Source of the DNA: Clostridia bacterium
GTDB taxonomy: Bacteria > Bacillota > Peptococcia > DRI-13 > UBA5745
Direction of reading: 5' to 3'
Length of the DNA stretch: 64,000 bases
Assembly: GCA_018436095.1 (NCBI GenBank)
Contig: JAHDMJ010000014.1
Span: forward strand, 1 to 64,000
A model generated the notes under the pieces. That model made no database searches. It was not told where the DNA came from and saw nothing but the letters and a program-made list of their open reading frames with translations. A program made the position numbers and the translations under genes. How positions within the stretch are numbered: the first letter of the stretch is position 1; each line of letters begins with the position of its first letter. Positions 28,916 to 45,232 of the stretch are shown piece after piece.

Positions 28916-29881
28916 TTACCGCACCTCCTTCTGCAAAGCCCCGGTTCTGGCCCCGGCAGCCACAGGACTGGCCAATTCCAGCAGCATCATGATCAGAGCC
29001 ATCCGGACATAAACACCGTTTTGAGCCTGTTCAAAATAAGCGGCCCGAGGGTCATCATCCACATCAATGGATATTTCATTGACTCTGGGCAGAGGATGGA
29101 GGATAGCCATGCCGGGCTTGGCCGCCGCCAGCTTATCCGGGGTCAGGATATAGGTATCCTTCAAGCGGACGTAGTCTTCTTCGTTGAAGAATCTCTCTTT
29201 TTGCACCCTGGTCATATAAAGAATATCCAACTGATCCATGACCAGCTCCATGTCTTCCGCCTCCACGAAAGGCACCCCTTTATCCCAGAGCACTTCCTCG
29301 ATTACGTAATCCGGCACCCTTAGCTCTTCCGGCGAAATCAGGATGAATTTGACGCCTTCATAACGGGCCAGGGATTTAATCAGGGAATGGACGGTGCGGC
29401 CGAATTTCAAGTCGCCGCAGAGGCCGATGGTAATGTGGCCAAGCTGCTTGCGCCGCTGGCGAATGGTCATGAGATCCGTCAGGGTCTGGGTGGGGTGCTG
29501 GTGACCGCCGTCGCCGGCATTGATCACCGGAATCCGGGAATAGCGGGAGGCCCGTAAGGGTGCGCCTTCCTTGGGATGGCGCATGGCACAGATGTCGGCG
29601 TAGCAGGAGACGGTGCGGATGGTATCCGCCACGCTTTCCCCTTTGGCCGCCGAGCTGCTGTCCGCCGTGGCAAAGCCCAGGACGTTGCCTCCCAGATTCA
29701 GCATAGCCGCCTCAAAGCTCAGGCGGGTTCTGGTACTGGCCTCATAAAAAAGAGTAGCCAATGTCTTGCCTTGACAAACCTGGCGAAATGCCTGACGGTC
29801 TGCCGCAATCTCATCGGCTACATCTAATAGGGCCTCAATTTCTTCTACGGTAAAATCCAAGGGATCAATTAAATGCCGCAT
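28916..29881 (-). CDS. pyrB: Aspartate carbamoyltransferase catalytic subunit
   Basis: The 321-residue enzyme has the carbamoyl phosphate motif [20 protein letters not shown] and the aspartate-binding HPLPRVNEI. It catalyses the first committed step of pyrimidine synthesis. GGAGG 5 nt before the ATG. Regulated by an upstream attenuator. Confidence 0.97.
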
Positions 29882-29952
29882 AAAAACCTCCTCATCTTTA
29901 CAAGCTGCCGGCGAAAGGGTGAAGGTCCGATAAACAGAGGCCCATACTCCAT

Positions 29953-29984
29953 AAAAAACGCCTTGCCGGCTTCGGCAAAGCGTC
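29953..29984 (-). terminator. Leader attenuator of pyrBI
   Basis: ACGCTTTGCCG/CGGCAAGGCGT stem followed by TTTTTT, about 70 nt before pyrB. The RNA also contains GCTTCGGC at its 5' end (30008-30015), complementary to GCCGAAGC in the terminator stem-loop, so an antiterminator can form. No PyrR-binding loop was recognised. Confidence 0.75.
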
Positions 29985-30017
29985 TTAACTTTCGTGTGAA
30001 TGAAACCGCCGAAGCAT
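29985..30017 (-). CDS. Possible 10-aa leader peptide of pyrBI
   Basis: A short frame [10 protein letters not shown] ends right at the terminator stem. The start codon would lie only a few nucleotides after the predicted transcription start, so it would have to be translated almost leaderless with only AAGAAAG upstream. Included as tentative; E. coli pyrBI also has a leader peptide that couples UTP level to attenuation. Confidence 0.25.
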
Positions 30018-30026
30018 TTCTTTCTT

Positions 30027-30056
30027 AGTATAACCTCTGGCGGCGGATTTTGTCCA
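30027..30056 (-). promoter_or_regulatory. Promoter of pyrBI
   Basis: Minus-strand TGGACA (30051-30056) and TATACT (30027-30032), 18-bp spacer. An inverted repeat CCTCTGG/CCAGAGG overlaps the spacer. Confidence 0.65.
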
Positions 30057-30113
30057 GAGGGTTATTTGTATACTTTTTGTAATGTTTTTTGTAAAATAAA
30101 CCTCTCATTCTAC

Positions 30114-30231
30114 AGTGAATAACTAACCAGCCTTAGCGAACCTTCGCAGCCGGCTAAATTTCCTTAATTAAAAAGCTCTTTGATCAGATTTTGCCGGTGA
30201 GAAGTGAGCAGAGGCTGGTTGGCTATTCACT
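30114..30231. repeat. 118-bp element with ~20-bp imperfect terminal inverted repeats
   Basis: Ends GTGAATAACTAACCAGCCT and AGGCTGGTTGGCTATTCAC are complementary except for two positions. The element starts right after the MacB-type stop codon. It may be a miniature inverted-repeat element or an unusually long terminator. Confidence 0.6.
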
Positions 30232-31436
30232 TTATTCGTAACGCAGGGCTTCGATGGGATCGGCGTTGGCAGCCTTGGAAGCAGGATAAAAACCAAAACC
30301 GATGCCCACGGCGGCAGAGAAAGCCACAGCCAAAAGAACGGTGCCGGGATTAACTACCACTGCAATATCCACTACCTTTCCCAAAATCAATACGGTGGCA
30401 AGCCCAATGGCCGTACCGATAATGCCGCCGGCGGCAGAAATGATGGCCGACTCCGTCAGAAATTGAAATTTAATATCCCAGGGCTGAGCCCCCAGGGCTT
30501 TGCGGATACCGATTTCCCTGGTTCGCTCCGTTACCGATACCAGCATGATATTCATGATGCCGATACCGCCCACCAGAAGGGAAATAGCGGCTATAGCGCC
30601 TACAGCCAGGGAAAGGGAGCCCAGCACCATGTCCACCTGCTGCATTTCTTCCGCCACCGTATGCATGGCGATTTCCTCGGGCTGGCGGTTTTTCATTCTG
30701 GCTACCACATTAGTCAGGCGGCGGTGGCCCGCCTCTTTATCTACATCATCGGCAAAATAAACATTGAGAGCCCAGGTTATGTAATTATCTACATTGCGGA
30801 TATAGGAGTAAGGCACATAAGCCGTGGGATTGCCCAGAAGCATCAGGGAAGCGGCGCTCATCTCCTTGCGGTACACGCCTACCACCGTCAGCTCTTGCCG
30901 CTCTCCTTCCACTTCCATTTCAATAACCTTGCCTATGCACTTAGCGGTGCCGAATATCTCCAGAGCAGTCTTTTCCGGCAGCACAATGTGGGGGCGGCGG
31001 CCATTAATGTCGGCGTCATTGATCATCCGGCCTTCAATGATCGTTACATTCATGATATTTTCAAAATGCTTGGCCACTTCCTGCATTTCCACACTAATAT
31101 CAAGGGTTTTTCTCTTAATTGTGCCGTTACTCCAGCCGTTTAGGTCGGCGTAGACCAAATCTCCTGCCATAGCCTCCAGCACCTTATCCAAATCCTCAAC
31201 GGTAAAATAATCGTTTTCCATATAAAAGCCGTCGGCAGGGCGGGTATAAACCATAGCCCTGTTAACGCCCACGTCTTTGTACTGGTCCGTCATAAAATTC
31301 CGCATACTGTCGCCGATGGAAACGATGGTAATAACGGAGCTGATGCCGATAATCACCCCCAGCATAGTAAGGAGGGAGCGCATCTTATTGGCCCGGATAG
31401 CCTGCAGGGACATGAGGAAATTTTCCAGCAGCATCA

Positions 31437-31440
<4 letters not shown>
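30232..31440 (-). CDS. MacB-type ABC transporter permease (export system 1)
   Basis: The 402-residue protein has an N-terminal membrane span with SLLTMLGVIIGISSVI, a large extracytoplasmic MacB_PCD domain and a C-terminal FtsX domain with GIMNIMLVSVTERTREIGIRKALGA. It belongs to MacB-type mechanotransmission exporters. ATG overlaps the stop of the ATPase gene (ATGA); GGAGGGAG lies upstream. Confidence 0.9.
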
Positions 31441-32169
<729 letters not shown>

Positions 32170-32177
<8 letters not shown>

Positions 32178-33435
32178 GGCTTGCCTCCGCCTCCGTTGCC
32201 GCCGCTTCCGGCGCCGCCACCTGCATCCCCTCATGGAGATCGGGAGTTACTATGGTAACGATGGTATCGCCTTCGGCCAGCCGATCGGAGAAAATTTCTG
32301 CCTGGAGATCATTTTCCACCCCCAAGGTAACGTCAATCAGCTCCAGAATACCGGCGGCAGTAACCCGGTAAACCTGCCAAGCCTCGCCGCCTTCGGAACC
32401 CTCCGCCTCAACCAAAGCCTCCAAAGGCACCGTAAACGTATTTTCCGATTTGGCCAAGTGGATAACAGCCTTGGCGTTAATACCGGCAATCAATTGACCG
32501 CTCTCTTCTTTAATATCAATAATGGTAGGAATAATCCGTTCCATACCGCCGCTTTTGCTTTCGCCGGTGGGGGAAATCCTGCTCACCTGGCCCTCTACAG
32601 TTTTGCTTCCCAGAATATCCGCTGTAATAGTGGCCTTCTGCCCCACGGCTACTTCGCCGATATCGTACTCACTGATCTGCACCTTCATCTGCAGCTTGGA
32701 GAGGTCCTCGATAACAAACATGGGGCTTTTGTTTTCCGTCTCGTCGGCAAAGCGCCCCAGACGTACATTGACCCGGGTAACTATGCCATCGATGGGACTT
32801 TTGACCTGAGCCTGAGCCAGCTTATCCTCGGCCTCTTCCAAAGCCTTCTCAAAAATGCTCAGTTGCTTATTCTGGGATGGGGAAAGCACTACGCTATCTT
32901 TTGACACAGAATACGCCGCCGCTTGATTCTCCAAATCCTTAAGGTTGCTTTCGACAGCCTCCAGCTCTTGCAGAGAAAGACTGCCGGCTTCGTACAAGGC
33001 TTGGGACCGCTCATATTGCTTCCGGGCCGCCGCCAGCCCCTCTTTGATCTTAGCATACTGCCGCTGGCTTTCTTTCAACCCTTCCTGGTACTGAAAGCGG
33101 GTAAGCTCCAGTTGATCCCTGGCTTTTTCCACCGCCAGCAGCAAGTCCTTGTCGTCCAGCACCGCCAAAAGCTGATCCTTGGCCACCGGATCCCCTTCTT
33201 CTACCTTCAGCTCCACCACTTCACAATGGAGGCTGGACACTACCTCCGCTTTATCCATGCCCTCCAAAGGCGCTTTCAACGTAATGCTCTTCTCAATATC
33301 GCCTTTGGCCAGCTTCATGGTAGCGATAGACGGCAAAGCTGCGCCGCCCCGCAATTGACCGCCGACGAGGAAAATTAAGCAAAGGGCAACCGCCAGTCCC
33401 CCTGCAATAAGCCATTTTTTCTTTTTACCTTTCAT
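32170..33435 (-). CDS. MacA-type membrane fusion/adaptor protein (export system 1)
   Basis: The ~421-residue protein has a basic start and one N-terminal span (MKGKKKKWLIAGGLAVAL), a lipoyl/barrel-sandwich domain split by a coiled coil (residues ~100-220, rich in Gln/Glu/Leu heptads) and a beta-barrel domain. It links the ABC exporter to the cell exterior or an outer-membrane channel. GGAGGG upstream of 33435 sets the start. First gene of a three-gene operon. Confidence 0.9.
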
Positions 33436-33567
33436 GCCGCTTCCCTCCAGATTATTTCTCAATCATTTTCTTCCTTTAATTTAATCACATAACAATAACA
33501 AATAGAATAAAAAAACATTAAAAGAATCTTAAAAAATACGGTACTTTTTAATAATTACAAGTATTCC

Positions 33568-33597
33568 TTGTATTCCTGTAGGTTTTGTGATTATAAT
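33568..33597 (+). promoter_or_regulatory. Promoter of the cysteine synthase-like gene
   Basis: TTGTAT (33568-33573) and TATAAT (33592-33597), 18-bp spacer. Confidence 0.6.
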
Positions 33598-33635
33598 TGA
33601 CATTGTTAATTCAACAAATAAGGAGCGGGACAAAA

Positions 33636-34568
33636 ATGATCTGTAGTAATGTTTTGGAGGCTATTGGCAATACTCCCGTCATTCGCCTTAACCGGCTGAC
33701 CGGCGAAAATGATGCGGAGGTGCTGGTCAAATTTGAAGGGGTCAATATTGGCGGCTCTATTAAAACCCGTACGGCTTTCAACATGATTCGGGAAGCGGAG
33801 CTGCGGGGCGATATTAAGCCGGACACCATCATCGTGGAGCCTACCAGCGGCAACCAGGGCATTGGCTTAGCTCTTGTGGGAGCGGTAAGGGGCTACAAAA
33901 CGATTATTATTATGCCGGATTCCGTCAGCGAGGAGCGCCGCAAACTGGTGAAAAATTACGGAGCCCAGGTCATCGTTGTCAAAGACAACTGCGATATTGG
34001 CGAATGTATCGATAATTGCCTAAAAACCGCTCTGCAGCTAAAAGCGGAAAATCCCAAGGTCTATGTGCCTCAGCAATTTATTAATCCTGATAATCCCGCT
34101 GTTCACCGGCTGCAAACGGGCCGGGAAATTCTGGAGCAGGTGAATAAGCCCATCCACGGCTTTTGCTCCGGTATCGGCACCGGCGGCTGCATTAGCGGTA
34201 TCGGCCAGGTTTTACGCCAAAGCAATCCCAATATCCTGATTTGGGCTTTGGAGCCGGAAAACGCCGCCATCCTTTCCGGCGGCAAGATTAGCACTCATAT
34301 TCAGATGGGCATCGGCGACGGCTTGATTCCCCACAATCTGGATACGAAAATCTACGATGAAGTGGTGGTCATTACCGACGAGGAGGCCATTCAGACTGCC
34401 AGGGACCTGGCCCGGCTGGAAGGGCTGATGTGCGGTATTTCCAGCGGCACCAACGTAGCCGCCGCTTTGAAAATGGCCAAAAAATTGGGCAAAGGCAAAA
34501 CGGTTATTACCTTGCTGCCGGATACCGGCGAGCGCTATTTCAGCACGCCCTTATTTGATGGAGAATAG
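33636..34568 (+). CDS. cysK: Cysteine synthase family PLP enzyme
   Basis: The ~310-residue fold-type II PLP enzyme begins MICSNVLEAIGNTPVIRLNRL and has the PLP lysine in GGSIKTRTA, the phosphate-binding GTGGCISG loop and a C-terminal PDTGERYFST. The substrate loop reads TSGNQG rather than the usual TSGNTG, and the Lys motif SIKTR rather than SVKDR, so the amino-acid donor may not be O-acetylserine. AAGGAG 10 nt upstream of 33636 sets the start. Single gene with a strong terminator. Confidence 0.85.
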   Translation: MICSNVLEAIGNTPVIRLNRLTGENDAEVLVKFEGVNIGGSIKTRTAFNMIREAELRGDIKPDTIIVEPTSGNQGIGLALVGAVRGYKTIIIMPDSVSEERRKLVKNYGAQVIVVKDNCDIGECIDNCLKTALQLKAENPKVYVPQQFINPDNPAVHRLQTGREILEQVNKPIHGFCSGIGTGGCISGIGQVLRQSNPNILIWALEPENAAILSGGKISTHIQMGIGDGLIPHNLDTKIYDEVVVITDEEAIQTARDLARLEGLMCGISSGTNVAAALKMAKKLGKGKTVITLLPDTGERYFSTPLFDGE

Positions 34569-35037: not shown

Positions 35038-36453
35038 ATGATGCTCCTAACCACACTACGGCTGGACCCTCAAGGCAAGCTGCCTATGTACCGCCAATTG
35101 ATCACATTAATTAAAGAGGCTATGCAGGAAGGGGATTTGGTTTCCGGCCAAAAGCTGCCTTCCATCCGCAGCTTGGCTAAAGCTTTAGGCGTCAGCCGCA
35201 TCACGGTGGAAATCGCCTACAGCCAGCTCTTAGAAGAGGGCTTCTTGATCAGCAAGCCAAAGCAAGGCTATTATGCCGCTGATTTACGGGATATCCAGGG
35301 CCGTCTCCCCCTGTTCGCTGAGGCGAAAGAGACGGCACCCCCGGCCAATGAGCCGCCGGTGGTTCGTTATAATTTTCGCAGCTACGGGGTGGAAAACGAT
35401 AGCTTCAATATGTCCGTATGGCGCCGCTACCTTCATAATGCACTGAAACAGCCGGAATTGCTGACCTCCTACGGTCCCTATCAAGGCGAACCCCGGCTGC
35501 TTTACACTTTGGCCAAATATAGCGACGAGGCCCGGGATGTTCGCTGCAGCCCCCAGCAAATCGTAGTGGGAGCCGGCACCCAAAGCCTGCTCCACATCCT
35601 CTGCGGCATTCTGGAAGTCTACAATAGCGGCTTGACCACCATCGGTATTCAGGCCCCCGGCTTTTTTCAAGCGGAGCAGATTTTTCGGGATCACCATTAC
35701 CAAATCCGCTCCTTCTCTTTAGCGGAGCTGGAAGACGAACAAGCCCGGCTGCCGGAGCTAATCTGCATAAACCCTTCCAATCCTTACCGGGGAGAAGCGG
35801 TAACGGCAACCCAGCGCCTTAATCTGCTGGGCCGGGCGGTACAGCAAGGCGCCTTGCTGCTGGAAGACGATTATATTGGCGAATTCCGCTACCTGTTGCG
35901 GCCCTTGCCTTCTTTGCAAAGCCTTGACCGGGGCGAAAGCGTCATTTATCTCGGCTCCTTTTCCCGCACCATGCTGCCTTCTCTGCGGATTAGCTACATG
36001 GTTTTGCCCCATTGTCTTCTGCCGGCCTACCGGGAGATAGGCGCTCGCTACAACCAAACGGCCTCCGGTATGGAGCAGCTTGCCCTGGCGGATTTTATTG
36101 CCGATGGCCATTTAAATCGCCATATTCGGCGGCTGCGGCGCATCTATGATCTAAAAAGCCAACATTTGCGGCAGGCCCTGGCTCATTATTTTCCCCAAGG
36201 CCTTACGGTGCCGTCTTACGAAAGCGGCCTCCGCCTCCTTTTGCTGGCAGCCAGCAAAGAAAACGCCCAGAGCCTGGCGGACCGGGCTCTGGACGAAGGC
36301 GTAGCGCTTATTCCTTTATCGGAAACCATAGAAAACAAAGAAGATCCCAGCCGCCCCTTGCGGCAATTAATGCTTTCTTATACGGCCATTTCGGAAAAAG
36401 ATATTCTTCCCGCTATAGAAAGCTTAAAAAAGGCTTGGGAGCCGGTGCTTTAG
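35038..36453 (+). CDS. MocR/PdxR-like regulator with substituted PLP lysine
   Basis: The 471-residue protein has an N-terminal GntR winged helix (LPSIRSLAKALGVSRITVEIAYSQL) fused to a fold-type I aminotransferase domain (residues ~110-465; GAGTQSLLHIL, NPSNPYRGE, LLEDDYIGEFRY). At the usual Schiff-base position GTFSK the sequence is GSFSR (codon CGC), so covalent PLP binding as in GabR looks impossible unless another Lys serves. It may sense another ligand or bind PLP non-covalently. It starts at an ATG preceded by GAAGGTG and faces gcvH-like/aroA-like genes convergently. Confidence 0.85.
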   Translation: MMLLTTLRLDPQGKLPMYRQLITLIKEAMQEGDLVSGQKLPSIRSLAKALGVSRITVEIAYSQLLEEGFLISKPKQGYYAADLRDIQGRLPLFAEAKETAPPANEPPVVRYNFRSYGVENDSFNMSVWRRYLHNALKQPELLTSYGPYQGEPRLLYTLAKYSDEARDVRCSPQQIVVGAGTQSLLHILCGILEVYNSGLTTIGIQAPGFFQAEQIFRDHHYQIRSFSLAELEDEQARLPELICINPSNPYRGEAVTATQRLNLLGRAVQQGALLLEDDYIGEFRYLLRPLPSLQSLDRGESVIYLGSFSRTMLPSLRISYMVLPHCLLPAYREIGARYNQTASGMEQLALADFIADGHLNRHIRRLRRIYDLKSQHLRQALAHYFPQGLTVPSYESGLRLLLLAASKENAQSLADRALDEGVALIPLSETIENKEDPSRPLRQLMLSYTAISEKDILPAIESLKKAWEPVL

Positions 36454-36517
36454 CCGCTGCTCCGGACGCCGTTGTTCCGGCTGTGCTTCGGCTGCATCTG
36501 CCGGCCTCCATGCGGAT

Positions 36518-36907
36518 TTATTGCTCCGTAGCCAAAAACTGCTGATAATCGCCGGCCTCTAAAAGAGTCTCGTGATCAGTGATCTCCGACACCTCGATCA
36601 TCCACGCCTCATAAGGATCTTTGGCAATCCTGTTCGGATCCGTCAGCAAATCCATGTTTACTTTAGTGATCCGGCCGCTGACCGGACAATAAACGTCAGA
36701 ATCAGCCCGGGCCGAAGCCAACTCAGCAAAGGCCTCCCCGGCTTCGATTTCTTCTTCGTCCGCCGGCAGGGTGATATAAACCAAATCGCCCAATAACTTT
36801 TGGCCATGATGGGTGATGCCGATCAGGGCTTGATGATCATTTAAAAAACGTACCCATTCATGGGATTTGGTAAATTGATAATCCCTCAGGGACTCCAGTT
36901 CTTCCAC
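36518..36907 (-). CDS. GcvH-like protein lacking the lipoyl lysine
   Basis: The 129-residue protein has the full GcvH fold pattern (KSHEWVRFLNDHQALIGITHHGQKLLGDLVYITLP, DSDVYCPVSGRITKVNMDL, AKDPYEAWMIEV). The lipoylated Lys, normally in ESVKAxSD, is Arg here (ASARADSD, codon CGG). It therefore cannot be lipoylated at the usual site. Start is a GTG at 36907 with GGAGGA upstream; this gives the normal GcvH length. It lies 118 bp after the AroA-like gene on the same strand. No other glycine-cleavage genes are in the window. Confidence 0.85.
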   Translation of the reverse strand: MEELESLRDYQFTKSHEWVRFLNDHQALIGITHHGQKLLGDLVYITLPADEEEIEAGEAFAELASARADSDVYCPVSGRITKVNMDLLTDPNRIAKDPYEAWMIEVSEITDHETLLEAGDYQQFLATEQ

Positions 36908-37025
36908 TGTTTTTCTTCCTCCTATCGCCAAAGAAAATTGACGGATAGCACTATTCTTCCCCTTTTTCGCCTTTTTATGAAACTTAAGCCTGCTATAGCC
37001 GGGTTTACTCAAATTTCTGCCCATT

Positions 37026-38504
37026 TCACAAAACTTCTGCCCAGCCGCCCAAACTCCGGTAGTCCTGCCAAAAGCCGGGATAGCTGCCTTCTGCCGCCAG
37101 TGGTTGTTCCAGTACCGCCGGCTTTTCACTCAAAGAAGCGGCTAAAGCCAGCATTAAGGCTATACGGTAATCGCCTTGGGAGCTTACCGTGGCGCTGCCG
37201 GTAAGTTTTGTCACACCCTCGACCAGCAGGTCCTCTTCTTGCACTTCTATCCTGGCTCCCAGCTTATTTAATTCTTCCGCTATAGCCAAAAGCAATGGCC
37301 TTTCTTCCGGCTCCTTTAATGCTTTTTCCCATTCCTTTGCCGGCGGCCCCTGTATACGGGTGCTGCCCGGCGTCAGGGCTGCCAAAAGGGTTAAAGGCGG
37401 CAGCAAGTCCGGCCATAAGCGGCAATCAATGATAATTTCCCCGGCTATTGGGGCAGCGGCGGCGGTATTAGCCACAGCCGGGCCGGTCTGCTCATTTTGC
37501 TCCCCGCCAAAGCTCACTCCCCCATTGGGTCCTTGGCGGGGCTTTTTCCCTTGCCTGGCCAGCAAATCCAGAATCACTCTGTTTTCCTGCAAAGAACCGC
37601 CGGGCAGCCCCTGAACCTCGATTTCCTGGCCTAAAGCTGCCGCTGCAAGATAATAAGCAGCTAGTCCGTAATCCCTTTCAATAATAAATTTTCTGCTTTG
37701 GTAACGTTGGCGGCCGGGCACGAAAAACTCCCGCTCTCCCTGGCGGTTTACCTGGCAGCCGAACTCCGCCATCAGCCGCAGAGTCATAGTCAGCTCCTGC
37801 CGGCAGGCCGGCTCCTCACTGAGACAGACCTGAGAATCGCCTTTTAACAGGGGCAAGGCCAACAGTAAGCCGCTGAGAAACGAGGCGCTTACCTGGGGCG
37901 GCAGCACAAACCGCCCCGGCACAAGCTGCCCCAGGACCTGCACCTCTATATCCAGCTTGTCCTGCCGGCTATCCGCCTGCCGCCGGAATACGGCGGCCTG
38001 GCCGCCAAAAGCTTTCTCATAAGGTTCCAAATCAAGTCCGGCCCAAGCGCCTTCACCGGTAAAGCGCCCGCCGCCGCTGCGCACTAACGCTAAGGGCAAA
38101 AGCAAATCAAAAGCAGCCTGGTATTGGCCGCAAGGGATCAGAGGCTTGTCCGCAAGATTATCCTTTTGGCTGGCGCCCCTTTGATTCCCGTCCCTTTGCT
38201 CACTACCGCCGCCGGCTTCATCGGCCCTGGCGTTAAACTTAGCTGCCCAGCGCTGCCTGTCATCACTGCGCCGGCAGCCGATGATCTCGAGGCGGTCCCC
38301 GTCTTTCTGCCATAAAGCCCCTAAAGCTTTTACTCCGCCTAAAATTATTTGCAGCTCCCGGGCCAAACCGCCGCCGATGGTCAAGCCGGAAGCCCCGGCG
38401 CCCCAGGCGGCGCAGATGATGGCCCGGCAAGCCAGGCTTAAAGCTGCCGGCGGCGCAACCTGCCCTTTTAACTTAGCCGGATAAATCCGATATTTCTCCT
38501 CCAT
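37026..38504 (-). CDS. EPSP synthase (AroA)-like protein with lost active-site residues
   Basis: The 492-residue frame follows the EPSP synthase fold (VSASFLSGLLLALPLLKG, YYLAAAALGQEIEVQGLPGG, IDCRLWPDLLPPLTLLAAL, LNKLGARIEVQEEDLLVEG, YPGFWQDYRSLGG). Signature residues are replaced: the N-terminal GDKSxxHR motif reads APPAALSLACRA, SSQ reads SAS, DHRIA reads DYRIA and the late Lys before FPDFW is absent. A ~40-residue low-complexity insertion lies near residues 85-125. It is unlikely to make EPSP. GGAG before the ATG at 38504 sets the start. Function unknown; the open frame argues for selection. Confidence 0.75.
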   Translation of the reverse strand: MEEKYRIYPAKLKGQVAPPAALSLACRAIICAAWGAGASGLTIGGGLARELQIILGGVKALGALWQKDGDRLEIIGCRRSDDRQRWAAKFNARADEAGGGSEQRDGNQRGASQKDNLADKPLIPCGQYQAAFDLLLPLALVRSGGGRFTGEGAWAGLDLEPYEKAFGGQAAVFRRQADSRQDKLDIEVQVLGQLVPGRFVLPPQVSASFLSGLLLALPLLKGDSQVCLSEEPACRQELTMTLRLMAEFGCQVNRQGEREFFVPGRQRYQSRKFIIERDYGLAAYYLAAAALGQEIEVQGLPGGSLQENRVILDLLARQGKKPRQGPNGGVSFGGEQNEQTGPAVANTAAAAPIAGEIIIDCRLWPDLLPPLTLLAALTPGSTRIQGPPAKEWEKALKEPEERPLLLAIAEELNKLGARIEVQEEDLLVEGVTKLTGSATVSSQGDYRIALMLALAASLSEKPAVLEQPLAAEGSYPGFWQDYRSLGGWAEVL

Positions 38505-38635
38505 GGCAATCTCCTTTTCCCTTTTATGGTTCAGCAAAGCCTTGCTTTGATTTTGCAATCATGGTAGCATAAAGTCAATAGTAGGAAACCGTTACACAAA
38601 ACAACGGGCAAATTATATAAAAAGGGGGCTCTATC

Positions 38636-41979: not shown

Positions 41980-43326
41980 TTAAACCGCTTTTTTCTGCAA
42001 TATACCGATCATGGTTCGGTCCAGATTAGGCATGCCTTCCTGGCACAGGATAACCAGATTAGCCACAATGCCCTTTAGGCCCTGGGCCACAATGCCCTCC
42101 TGAGGCCCTACTTCCGTGCCCCCCAAGGCAAGAAAGGCCGCCAACACCGATTCGCAGGCCGAAGAGGTCAGCTTCAAGGCACAGCCATCCTTGGCGCCAT
42201 CGCAGATCATCCCGGCCAGATTCGCCATCATATTTCTGGCAGCTCCTTCGATTTGGGCCAGACTGCCTCCCATCATCCAGGCTACTGCCGCCGATACGCC
42301 CAAACCTGCGGCAATGGCGCAGCCGCAGATGGGGGCCAGTTTGCCGATATGCTGTTTGACGTAGGCTGTGGTCAGATTACCCAAGGCCAGGCCCCGTAAA
42401 AATCTTTCCTTGGACAAGGACTTTTCTTCAGCCACAATAGCAATGGGCAGGGATACCAAAATTCCTTGATTGCCGCTGCCCGTAGTGCTCATTACCGGCA
42501 AGGGCAGCCCTCCCATCCGGCCGTCGCAGGCCGCCGCCACCTCAATGCGTATCTTGGTGATCAGATCATTAGCCAATACCTGATGCTTCATCAGCTCCTG
42601 AAGGCGGTGCCCCAAGCCCAGGCCTGCCGGATGCTCCAGCTCTGCCTTAGCCATATTGCGGTTCATAATAGCGCTTTCTTCCAAAAACGCCAATTCCTCT
42701 ATGGGGATTTGCTCTATAGCTTCCACCAGCTCTCCCATCTCCCTGCCCAACAATGAGCAAGCAGCGGTTTTTGCAGTCCCGCTTCTTCCGGGCCCCCGCT
42801 CCTCATTTGGCTGGCTGCAGCGGCCGTCGAAAAGGGCTTTAACCAAATTGGTATGGTTATCTTCCGTCCAAGTCTCGGCTGCATGTTCAGCCGTTTTGGC
42901 CGTAACATGAATATAAAAGGGCGATGCAGCTTCACATACCGCCTGCACCTTTACTTTATGCCCGGCAATCAGCTCTTGGGCCCCGGCAATTTCTTCTGCC
43001 GTAAGGCTCTCAAAAAGCAGCAGCTCTTTCTTGCTGTCGGCCAGCACGGCCCCAAGGGCTGCCGAAAGCTCCAGCCCGGCTCTTCCTGTACCGGGGATGG
43101 TAACGGCATAAGCGTTTTTATAAATATTGCCGGAAAGCTCCACTTCAAGAGAAGTTAATTTATTCGCGGCCTCCTCAATGCCTGTCCACTGCTGCAAAAC
43201 CTCCATAGTTCTGGCTACGGCCAGAGCAATGGCTGCCGGCTCGGTACAGCCTACCGCAGGCTTCAGTTCCTGACGCAATAAAGCCAAACAGCCCTCACTA
43301 AAGCTTTTCTTGATATCCTGGCTCAT
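41980..43326 (-). CDS. cyuA: L-cysteine desulfidase/L-serine deaminase family protein (CyuA/YhaM, UPF0597)
   Basis: The ~448-residue protein has the CyuA pattern: PAVGCTEPAAIALAV near the N-terminus, PVMSTTGSGNQGI, PICGCAIAAG and ICDGAKDGCALKL, the cysteines being likely [4Fe-4S] ligands. The family breaks cysteine to pyruvate, ammonia and sulfide. AAAGGAG before the ATG at 43326 sets the start. It has a sigma-54 promoter and sits next to a sigma-54 activator, so it is probably induced by cysteine or a related signal. Confidence 0.9.
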   Translation of the reverse strand: MSQDIKKSFSEGCLALLRQELKPAVGCTEPAAIALAVARTMEVLQQWTGIEEAANKLTSLEVELSGNIYKNAYAVTIPGTGRAGLELSAALGAVLADSKKELLLFESLTAEEIAGAQELIAGHKVKVQAVCEAASPFYIHVTAKTAEHAAETWTEDNHTNLVKALFDGRCSQPNEERGPGRSGTAKTAACSLLGREMGELVEAIEQIPIEELAFLEESAIMNRNMAKAELEHPAGLGLGHRLQELMKHQVLANDLITKIRIEVAAACDGRMGGLPLPVMSTTGSGNQGILVSLPIAIVAEEKSLSKERFLRGLALGNLTTAYVKQHIGKLAPICGCAIAAGLGVSAAVAWMMGGSLAQIEGAARNMMANLAGMICDGAKDGCALKLTSSACESVLAAFLALGGTEVGPQEGIVAQGLKGIVANLVILCQEGMPNLDRTMIGILQKKAV

Positions 43327-43374
43327 TTGTTTGCTCCTTTCTGCCACCGCCCGGGCGGCACTGCAGAAATATAT

Positions 43375-43390
43375 AGCAATTTTTGTGCCA
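43375..43390 (-). promoter_or_regulatory. Sigma-54 (-24/-12) promoter of cyuA
   Basis: Minus strand reads TGGCACAAAAATTGCT: TGGCAC, five bases, TTGCT, a full match to the sigma-54 consensus, 49 nt upstream of the cyuA start codon. Confidence 0.85.
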
Positions 43391-43422
43391 AGACCACGCC
43401 TTCTTATTTCCTTACATTTTAG

Positions 43423-43487
43423 TATCAATAATGAAAAAAAGCCAGCCTTTTTTATCTTCGATGATAAAATATTTATCAGTAATGATA
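43423..43487. promoter_or_regulatory. Three dyad sites, probable enhancer for the sigma-54 activator
   Basis: TATCAGTAATGATA (43474-43487), TATCTTCGATGATA (43453-43466) and TATCAATAATGAAA (43423-43436) share TATCN6GATA-type symmetry and are spaced 21 and 30 bp, about two and three helical turns. They lie 33-112 bp upstream of the -24/-12 promoter, where activator sites belong. Confidence 0.7.
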
Positions 43488-43987: not shown

Positions 43988-45232
43988 CTATACCAATATG
44001 CCTTGCTGCAGCAAAATCACCTTTTTCGCACCTAAATAACCATTATATTGAGCCTGAACATAATCCTGCTGGGCCGTAAGCAGGTTTTTTTCTGCCGTCC
44101 TCATTTCATTTAATGTGATGGCCCCCATATTCATTTTCATTTGGGCCGTCATGTAATCCCGCTGGGCCTGATCCCGCTTTTCTTTGGCCTTCTCCAAAGC
44201 CTCATCCAGCCCCTTAAATTCCTTCACGGCGCTTTCCACCGTTCTCGTCAAGGTTTGCTTCGTCTCTTTCAAAGCCAGATCCTTGGCGGCGCCGCTGGCT
44301 GCCAGCTTTTCCGCCTGGCTGGTTTGGCCCCGGTTCTCATAGCTCTCGATTTTTTTGCTGAGCTCATCCACTTCCCGTTGGGCCTGTTTTAAAGAGAGGG
44401 AGTTTTTCAAAGCCTCCGCCAGCACGTCCTCCTCGTCAAACTCTTTAGCATACTGGCCAAAATCCGGGGGGTTAGCCAGCTTGAACTCCACCTCATCCGC
44501 CAAGTTCAAATATTCCCTCATGGTATTTTTGTTGTCTTTCAAAGTGGTCTTTAAATTTTCCAAAGCATCTTTGGCACTATCCCACTGGGTCTTGGCGCTT
44601 TGCAGTTGGCTTTGGCTATAGGCGCCAAAAGCGCTTTTAACCTTGGCCAGCTCATATTCGGCATTCAGCCTTTGCACTTCCTTTTCCTGAATCTCTATCT
44701 GCACCTCCCCCTGAAGAATATCCAGATACAGCTTTTGGGCCTGATAAGCTACTTTAGGCTTTAGCTTTTCCAGCGCCTCCTCCGCATCCAGATAAGAGTT
44801 GTAGGCGCTTTCGTAACTGTCCTGCAAGCTGTATAAAGAACTTTCGGAAATGCCGGAACTGGGGTTATTGTAATATTGATAGACTTGGGACTGATAATTA
44901 GAAAGCTGGGAATCTTTTGATTGCTCAGCCTGATCCAAAGAGGCCTTCTGGCGGGTAATATCGCTGCCGTTATTTTGAGCGATAGCCCCTACCTCGGCAA
45001 AAGTGTAGGTTCTGATCTGACCGCCGCTTTCTTGTCCGCCGCCGCTATCGGCCAATAAGGCGCCGCCTAAGGGCCGGCTGGCAGCATCCGGCGCAAGCCG
45101 GTTAAGCTTATCCGGCTCTAAAGGCAGGGTGGTCAGCAGCAAACTCAACGCCAGAAATATACCGGCCTGCTGTACCCCTTTACTGCTTTTATTGCTTCTA
45201 TTATCCTTATTGCCTCTATCGCTTTTCTCCAT
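43988..45232 (-). CDS. TolC-like outer membrane efflux family protein
   Basis: The 414-residue protein has an N-terminal hydrophobic segment (GIFLALSLLLTTLPL), then long alpha-helical coiled-coil stretches typical of TolC (AEYELAKVKSAFGAYSQSQLQSAKTQW, and QMKMNMGAITLNEMRTAEKNLLTAQQDYVQAQ near the C-terminus). In diderms TolC forms the exit duct; similar proteins occur in some monoderm Firmicutes with unclear location. AAAGGAGG precedes the ATG. It is the last gene of the second export operon, 23 bp after the permease. Confidence 0.85.
   Translation of the reverse strand: MEKSDRGNKDNRSNKSSKGVQQAGIFLALSLLLTTLPLEPDKLNRLAPDAASRPLGGALLADSGGGQESGGQIRTYTFAEVGAIAQNNGSDITRQKASLDQAEQSKDSQLSNYQSQVYQYYNNPSSGISESSLYSLQDSYESAYNSYLDAEEALEKLKPKVAYQAQKLYLDILQGEVQIEIQEKEVQRLNAEYELAKVKSAFGAYSQSQLQSAKTQWDSAKDALENLKTTLKDNKNTMREYLNLADEVEFKLANPPDFGQYAKEFDEEDVLAEALKNSLSLKQAQREVDELSKKIESYENRGQTSQAEKLAASGAAKDLALKETKQTLTRTVESAVKEFKGLDEALEKAKEKRDQAQRDYMTAQMKMNMGAITLNEMRTAEKNLLTAQQDYVQAQYNGYLGAKKVILLQQGILV

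Follow-up and report, generated by a model that had tools for sequence, protein, structure and literature searches.

The first 64 kb of the 177.8-kb contig JAHDMJ010000014.1 from the 3.7-Mb genome of a little-known anaerobic Clostridia bacterium (hereafter the window) carried adjacent genes for a MocR/PdxR-type regulator, a GcvH-like protein and an AroA-like protein, each altered at cofactor-attachment or active-site residues. All three reading frames were open, as the initial annotation of this DNA had stated. The three genes were as follows.

35038..36453, + strand: MocR/PdxR-type regulator with a winged helix-turn-helix (wHTH) and an aminotransferase-like domain, in which Arg310 replaces the pyridoxal phosphate (PLP) lysine (NF052282, alignments, omega)
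36518..36907, − strand: GcvH-like protein without the lipoyl lysine (Arg67), probable relic of an ancestral gcv operon (PF01597, alignment, omega, synteny)
37026..38504, − strand: AroA-like protein of the 5-enolpyruvylshikimate-3-phosphate (EPSP) synthase family with an eroded active site, probable relic of an ancestral aro operon (PF00275, TIGR01356, tree, omega)

The window's own genome (G000) was compared within a family set of nine genomes and an order set of 25 genomes. G004 is an independent genome of the same genus, to which G001–G003 also belong, and G007 and G008 represent the sister genus. Three of the relatives were metagenome assemblies, and assemblies of this type limit the comparison. 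G004 showed the same residue states and the same gene order as the window, so that a sequencing error or assembly artefact was rejected; because GSFSR, SARADSD and the eroded AroA all recurred there, the changes were not sequencing errors.

The GcvH-like gene probably starts at the GTG at 36907 behind an AGGAGG sequence, which would give a protein of 129 amino acids; both the GTG and the ribosome site were conserved in G004. The protein contained a GCV_H domain (PF01597, 102.2 bits; cut-off 22.2) and passed the broader PRK01202 model (118.7 against 117), and it missed the cut-off of the gcvH equivalog (TIGR00527, 106.6 against 115.85). Where canonical GcvH has ESVKAVSD, the protein read ASARADSD, and the lipoyl-accepting lysine, whose absence had been noticed in the initial annotation, was arginine in G000 and G004 and lysine in all 29 other GcvH rows, which were drawn from the fetched loci alone. 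It kept 22 of 29 near-invariant columns; the seven lost include E64, V66, and K67 of the ESVKA loop, as well as N95. The G000 and G004 proteins were 91% identical to each other and 49–50% identical to the GcvHs of G007 and G008, which read ESVKAVSD. In the phylogenetic tree the pair grouped with these and others (support 99/98), apart from the working GcvHs of the same two genomes, with a stem of 1.14 and tips of 0.02 and 0.08. An imperfect inverted repeat lies ahead of the ribosome site in both species (36907-36960, − strand); a conserved hairpin at this place was rejected, as folding was no better than in shuffled sequences (z 0.07 and 0.27).

The AroA-like protein contained an EPSP_synthase domain (PF00275, 127.6 bits; cut-off 22.8) and reached half of the score needed for the aroA equivalog (TIGR01356, 144.1 against 287.25). 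The motifs SKS, GSTLR, RPM, SSQ, LRLKESDR, and AKSYP were broken, and PD and DxR were kept. Among 168 columns invariant across four canonical AroAs, 22 of 56 polar or charged columns were kept as against 75 of the 112 others (Fisher p 9e-4), so that the core is retained and the cleft-type residues are not. The description of the active site in the initial annotation needs one correction: some catalytic-type residues were kept, at the positions of R27, D313, and R386 in Escherichia coli AroA. The G000 and G004 proteins shared 73% identity, and 40–41% with the AroAs of G007 and G008, which have canonical motifs and to which the pair was sister in the tree (82/76), on a long stem of 2.22 with tips of 0.28 and 0.17. 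G004 had lost 61 of the 71 invariant columns lost in G000, and at 39 of these the two proteins have the same replacement. G001–G003, which have small, incomplete genomes of about 2 Mb and differ greatly from G000 and G004, gave no AroA match, and the GcvH of G001 and G003 was divergent and retained the lysine. One further feature lies upstream of the gene.

38520..38590, − strand: candidate promoter region (weak) upstream of the AroA-like gene, with good conservation between G000 and G004 (76% identity overall, near-identical core)

Promoter and terminator scans gave results near chance; in this region four promoters were found against 2.9 expected, which was not significant.

The gene order of the sister genus indicated where the two altered enzymes came from. 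In G008, a cluster of 17 genes on one strand, aroF-aroB-aroA-aroC-pheA-aroE-aroK-aroQ-tyrA-gcvT-gcvH-gcvPA-gcvPB-sdaB-sdaA-lplA-lpd, is convergent with an Arg-type MocR, beyond which lie an ECF S component, a WG-repeat protein, a YtvI-like protein, a MacA-like adaptor, an ATPase, a permease, and pyrB. G007 had the whole set except sdaA on two contigs, sdaA falling in the contig gap. In the window the order was AroA-like, GcvH-like, convergent MocR, cysteine synthase, adaptor, ATPase, permease, and pyrB, so that aroA and gcvH remain in the order, orientation, and place that they have in the sister-genus cluster. When the 17 cluster proteins were searched against the window by tblastn, 15 left no trace at the locus and only aroA and gcvH were found, apart from a weak sdaA hit in an unrelated place. 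The genes on the far side of MocR were as follows.

33597..34568, + strand: cysteine synthase-like gene upstream of MocR, outside the relic cluster (TIGR01139, 358 bits; conserved in G004)
28916..33462, − strand: efflux genes (MacA-like adaptor, ABC ATPase, and permease) and pyrB, a flank in common with G008 (47–80% identity, same order; pyrB TIGR00670)

Both G000 and G004 also carried aro and gcv operons with canonical motifs on other contigs, lplA and lpd accompanying the gcv genes; canonical gcvH and aroA genes, which the initial annotation had advised looking for elsewhere in the genome, thus exist. Among the nine family genomes the variant GcvH and AroA were found in G000 and G004 only, both of one genus, and at the thresholds used the 25 order genomes held no further carrier of either variant. 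The locus is, in our view with good though not full confidence, what is left of a dismantled aro-gcv supercluster, of which two relics were retained as non-catalytic proteins while MocR stands apart. The three genes are adjacent because they descend from one ancestral cluster, not because they were recruited.

A possible third relic, a weak sdaA hit at 41980-43428, was rejected, since it is a different gene in a non-syntenic place and was taken as ordinary. The protein encoded there (− strand) belongs to the serine-dehydratase-alpha family, has cysteine motifs, and resembles an L-cysteine desulfidase. A weakly TolC-like protein is encoded at 43988-45232 (− strand) beside ABC-transporter-type genes and hints that this Bacillota bacterium may have an outer membrane.

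Selection was estimated from one species pair, G000 and G004 (dS about 0.5–1.0), as the dN/dS ratio omega by the Nei–Gojobori method (NG86) with bootstrap ranges, over 19 genes: the three genes, ten window neighbours, and six canonical aro and gcv genes. Omega was 0.043–0.126 in the neighbours and 0.036–0.117 in the canonical genes. It was 0.066 (0.043–0.098) for MocR, about 0.065 (0.031–0.139) for the GcvH-like gene, as against about 0.035 for canonical gcvH, and about 0.20 (0.151–0.277) for the AroA-like gene, as against 0.080 (0.055–0.129) for canonical aroA. The frames of the GcvH-like and AroA-like genes were open in both species at dS 0.7–0.8; when the observed differences were randomly re-scattered, the GcvH frame stayed open in 236 of 2000 trials and the AroA frame in none of 2000. 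Purifying selection acts on both relics after the loss of their active sites, strongly on the GcvH-like and more weakly on the AroA-like gene. Since the GcvH arginine and the 61 shared AroA losses are common to both species, most of the losses came before this selection, and with omega far below 1 after them the relics are not simple pseudogenes. The view of the initial annotation that the changes are not random decay was thus upheld for all three genes.

These results suggest the following course of events. The second, canonical aro and gcv operons probably do the work of the enzymes and may thereby have freed the old copies; the old cluster was probably deleted except for two genes. Both of these lost catalytic or cofactor residues before the G000/G004 species split and have since been held by purifying selection. 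The relics most likely persist without catalysis and bind something by means of the fold that they have kept. With the family core retained, the active site gone, and omega low, binding is the simplest role to propose, in line with what PMC11266112 describes for pseudoenzymes in general. As a tentative working guess, the GcvH-like protein may dock to a partner of the H protein (GcvP, GcvT, Lpd, or LplA) as a competitor or scaffold that cannot be lipoylated. For the AroA-like protein, a scaffold role and slow decay seem about evenly balanced. It is conceivable, though we would not favour it, that the two are conserved pseudoenzymes taken from the dismantled operon into a new, perhaps regulatory, role, the GcvH-like protein, which could not be lipoylated, competing for or organising the glycine-cleavage or lipoylation machinery and the EPSP-synthase fold serving as a co-expressed scaffold, and that the neighbouring regulator, as a separate matter, is of a MocR lineage that senses B6 without a Schiff-base lysine.

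Several observations weigh against this explanation of the locus. The relic pair occurs in two genomes alone, and the purifying selection rests on the one species pair. The AroA-like omega was the highest of the 19 genes, 2.5 times that of working aroA, with several in-frame indels, and was again the highest (0.33) by the Yang–Nielsen method (YN00), which gave no usable value for the GcvH-like gene. In the former AroA cleft the species have continued to diverge, with 34 of the 56 polar columns identical as against 96 of the 112 others, which fits slow decay too; support in the AroA tree was moderate (82/76); and AlphaFold models, built from alignments of two and three rows, had mean pLDDT values of 33 and 50, too poor for use. 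Together with the eroded active sites, the high omega and the variable cleft would favour both genes being slowly decaying pseudogenes that have not yet acquired a stop codon. We consider this unlikely for the pair as a whole, since the bootstrap ranges of omega exclude 1, the frames are open in both species with their indels in frame, the GcvH-like gene is as constrained as its neighbours, and its ribosome site and the segment upstream of the AroA-like gene are conserved.

The initial annotation had drawn the three proteins together into a shared repurposed function. Their adjacency in both genomes of this type and the purifying selection on all three would fit such a single module, but the MocR arginine was shared by all four family orthologues and by Phascolarctobacterium, even where GcvH and AroA are canonical (G007 and G008), and in P. 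faecium it occurs beside pdxST; MocR is moreover convergent and lay next to the cluster before anything was lost. It follows that the changes arose separately and at different depths, and the three-protein module is highly improbable. Co-occurrence of the three variants, suggested earlier as a check on the module, was found in G004, but in G007 and G008 the MocR arginine goes with canonical partners. A role shared by just the GcvH-like and AroA-like proteins seems possible from their arrangement, the genes lying on the same strand 118 nt apart and having been kept together out of 17 in two species. That they form a two-protein complex or an operon with a new joint function is nevertheless rather improbable, because they evolve at very different rates (omega 0.065 and 0.20), no third carrier was found among the 25 order genomes searched (2 carriers), and neither the spacing nor the partial intergenic conservation proves co-transcription. 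A defence function was rejected, as PADLOC matched none of the three proteins.

The regulator follows a history of its own. It passed the PdxR model (NF052282, 366 bits; cut-off 320) and contained a wHTH GntR domain and an aminotransferase-like domain (PF00392 and PF00155). Its GSFSR aligned with FSK in GabR and in a second MocR structure, 7pq9, in agreement with the earlier observation, so that Arg310 occupies the position of the Schiff-base lysine Lys312 in GabR (numbering from PMC6677901). Of the EDDY motif the Asp and Tyr were kept, as were the PLP-pocket serines. The protein was 91% identical between G000 and G004 and 58–60% identical to its orthologues in G007 and G008, which also have GSFSR. 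In the MocR alignment (27 rows read, three partial matches excluded) the position was R in 4, N in 1, and K in 22, and in a wider contig search, in which 80 loci of 139 relatives were kept, it was R in 6, T in 1, M in 1, and K in 72, proportions that are biased because the query set was R-type. The six R loci were G004, G007, G008, P. faecium (L134), L172, and L202, of which the distant L172 and L202 probably arose independently. Three further MocR-type proteins lacking the lysine, L155 (T), L207 (M), and L087 (N), likewise appear to be independent; L202 adjoins pdxST. The R-type MocR of P. faecium (49% identity) is divergent from pdxS-pdxT (L134:8455-14885), followed by thiF and genes named by eye as thiG-, thiH-, and thiE-like, with thiW upstream.

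In G007 and G008 it is a second MocR, keeping the lysine (GAFSK), that adjoins pdxST, and the Arg-type regulator is therefore not the pdxST neighbour there; it is divergent from the ECF S component. No pdxS match was found in seven of the nine family genomes, G000 and G004 among them, and no pdxJ match in any of the nine. A role in B6 salvage control is therefore plausible for the regulator in G000 and G004. By its distribution the arginine is old, much older than the GcvH and AroA losses, and the Arg-type MocR would represent a PdxR-like lineage that senses B6 non-covalently or not at all. According to PMC8739950, the Lys302His variant of EnuR is a constitutive repressor; hence the Arg-type MocR may likewise act constitutively, or else may sense B6 without a covalent bond. 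PdxR regulons include pdxST, pdxK, and pdxU (PMC5320631).

Taken together, the locus offers a natural experiment in which two enzyme genes survived the break-up of their operon, lost their defining residues, and were then kept, and the relative with the intact cluster provides a starting point for telling retention from decay; the relics would make a clean case of retained pseudoenzymes. In a literature search covering mainly titles and abstract openings, we recognised no described case of an EPSP-synthase pseudoenzyme, a GcvH pseudogene or non-lipoylated H protein, or a MocR without the lysine. The Arg-type lineage lacks the lysine that, with Asp279, every MocR cluster is reported to conserve (PMC6677901), and it bears on PLP sensing without a covalent bond, the lysine being treated as a fixed requirement in the literature consulted.

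Compared with known systems, the AroA-like protein resembles EPSP synthase (PF00275 and TIGR01356) in its family match, its hydrophobic and glycine core columns, and its aro-operon ancestry, but it has lost most substrate-binding residues, reaches half of the curated equivalog score, and coexists with a canonical AroA elsewhere in the genome. The GcvH-like protein resembles GcvH (PF01597) in its family match, its near-invariant columns (22 of 29), and its gcv-operon ancestry by synteny; unlike GcvH, it lacks the lipoyl lysine, has lost the E, V, and K of ESVKA together with N95, and is encoded by an orphan gene with no gcvT or gcvP adjoining, a canonical GcvH being present elsewhere. Like the chlamydial GcvH-like protein (TIGR03077 not_gcvH), it is a relative of GcvH encoded outside a glycine cleavage operon, but against that model it scored 45.5 where 144 is needed. 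The regulator is like GabR, PdxR, and EnuR in its wHTH and aminotransferase-like domains, in passing the PdxR model, and in the retained pocket Asp, Tyr, and Ser residues, and differs from these PdxR/MocR regulators in having arginine at the Schiff-base lysine.

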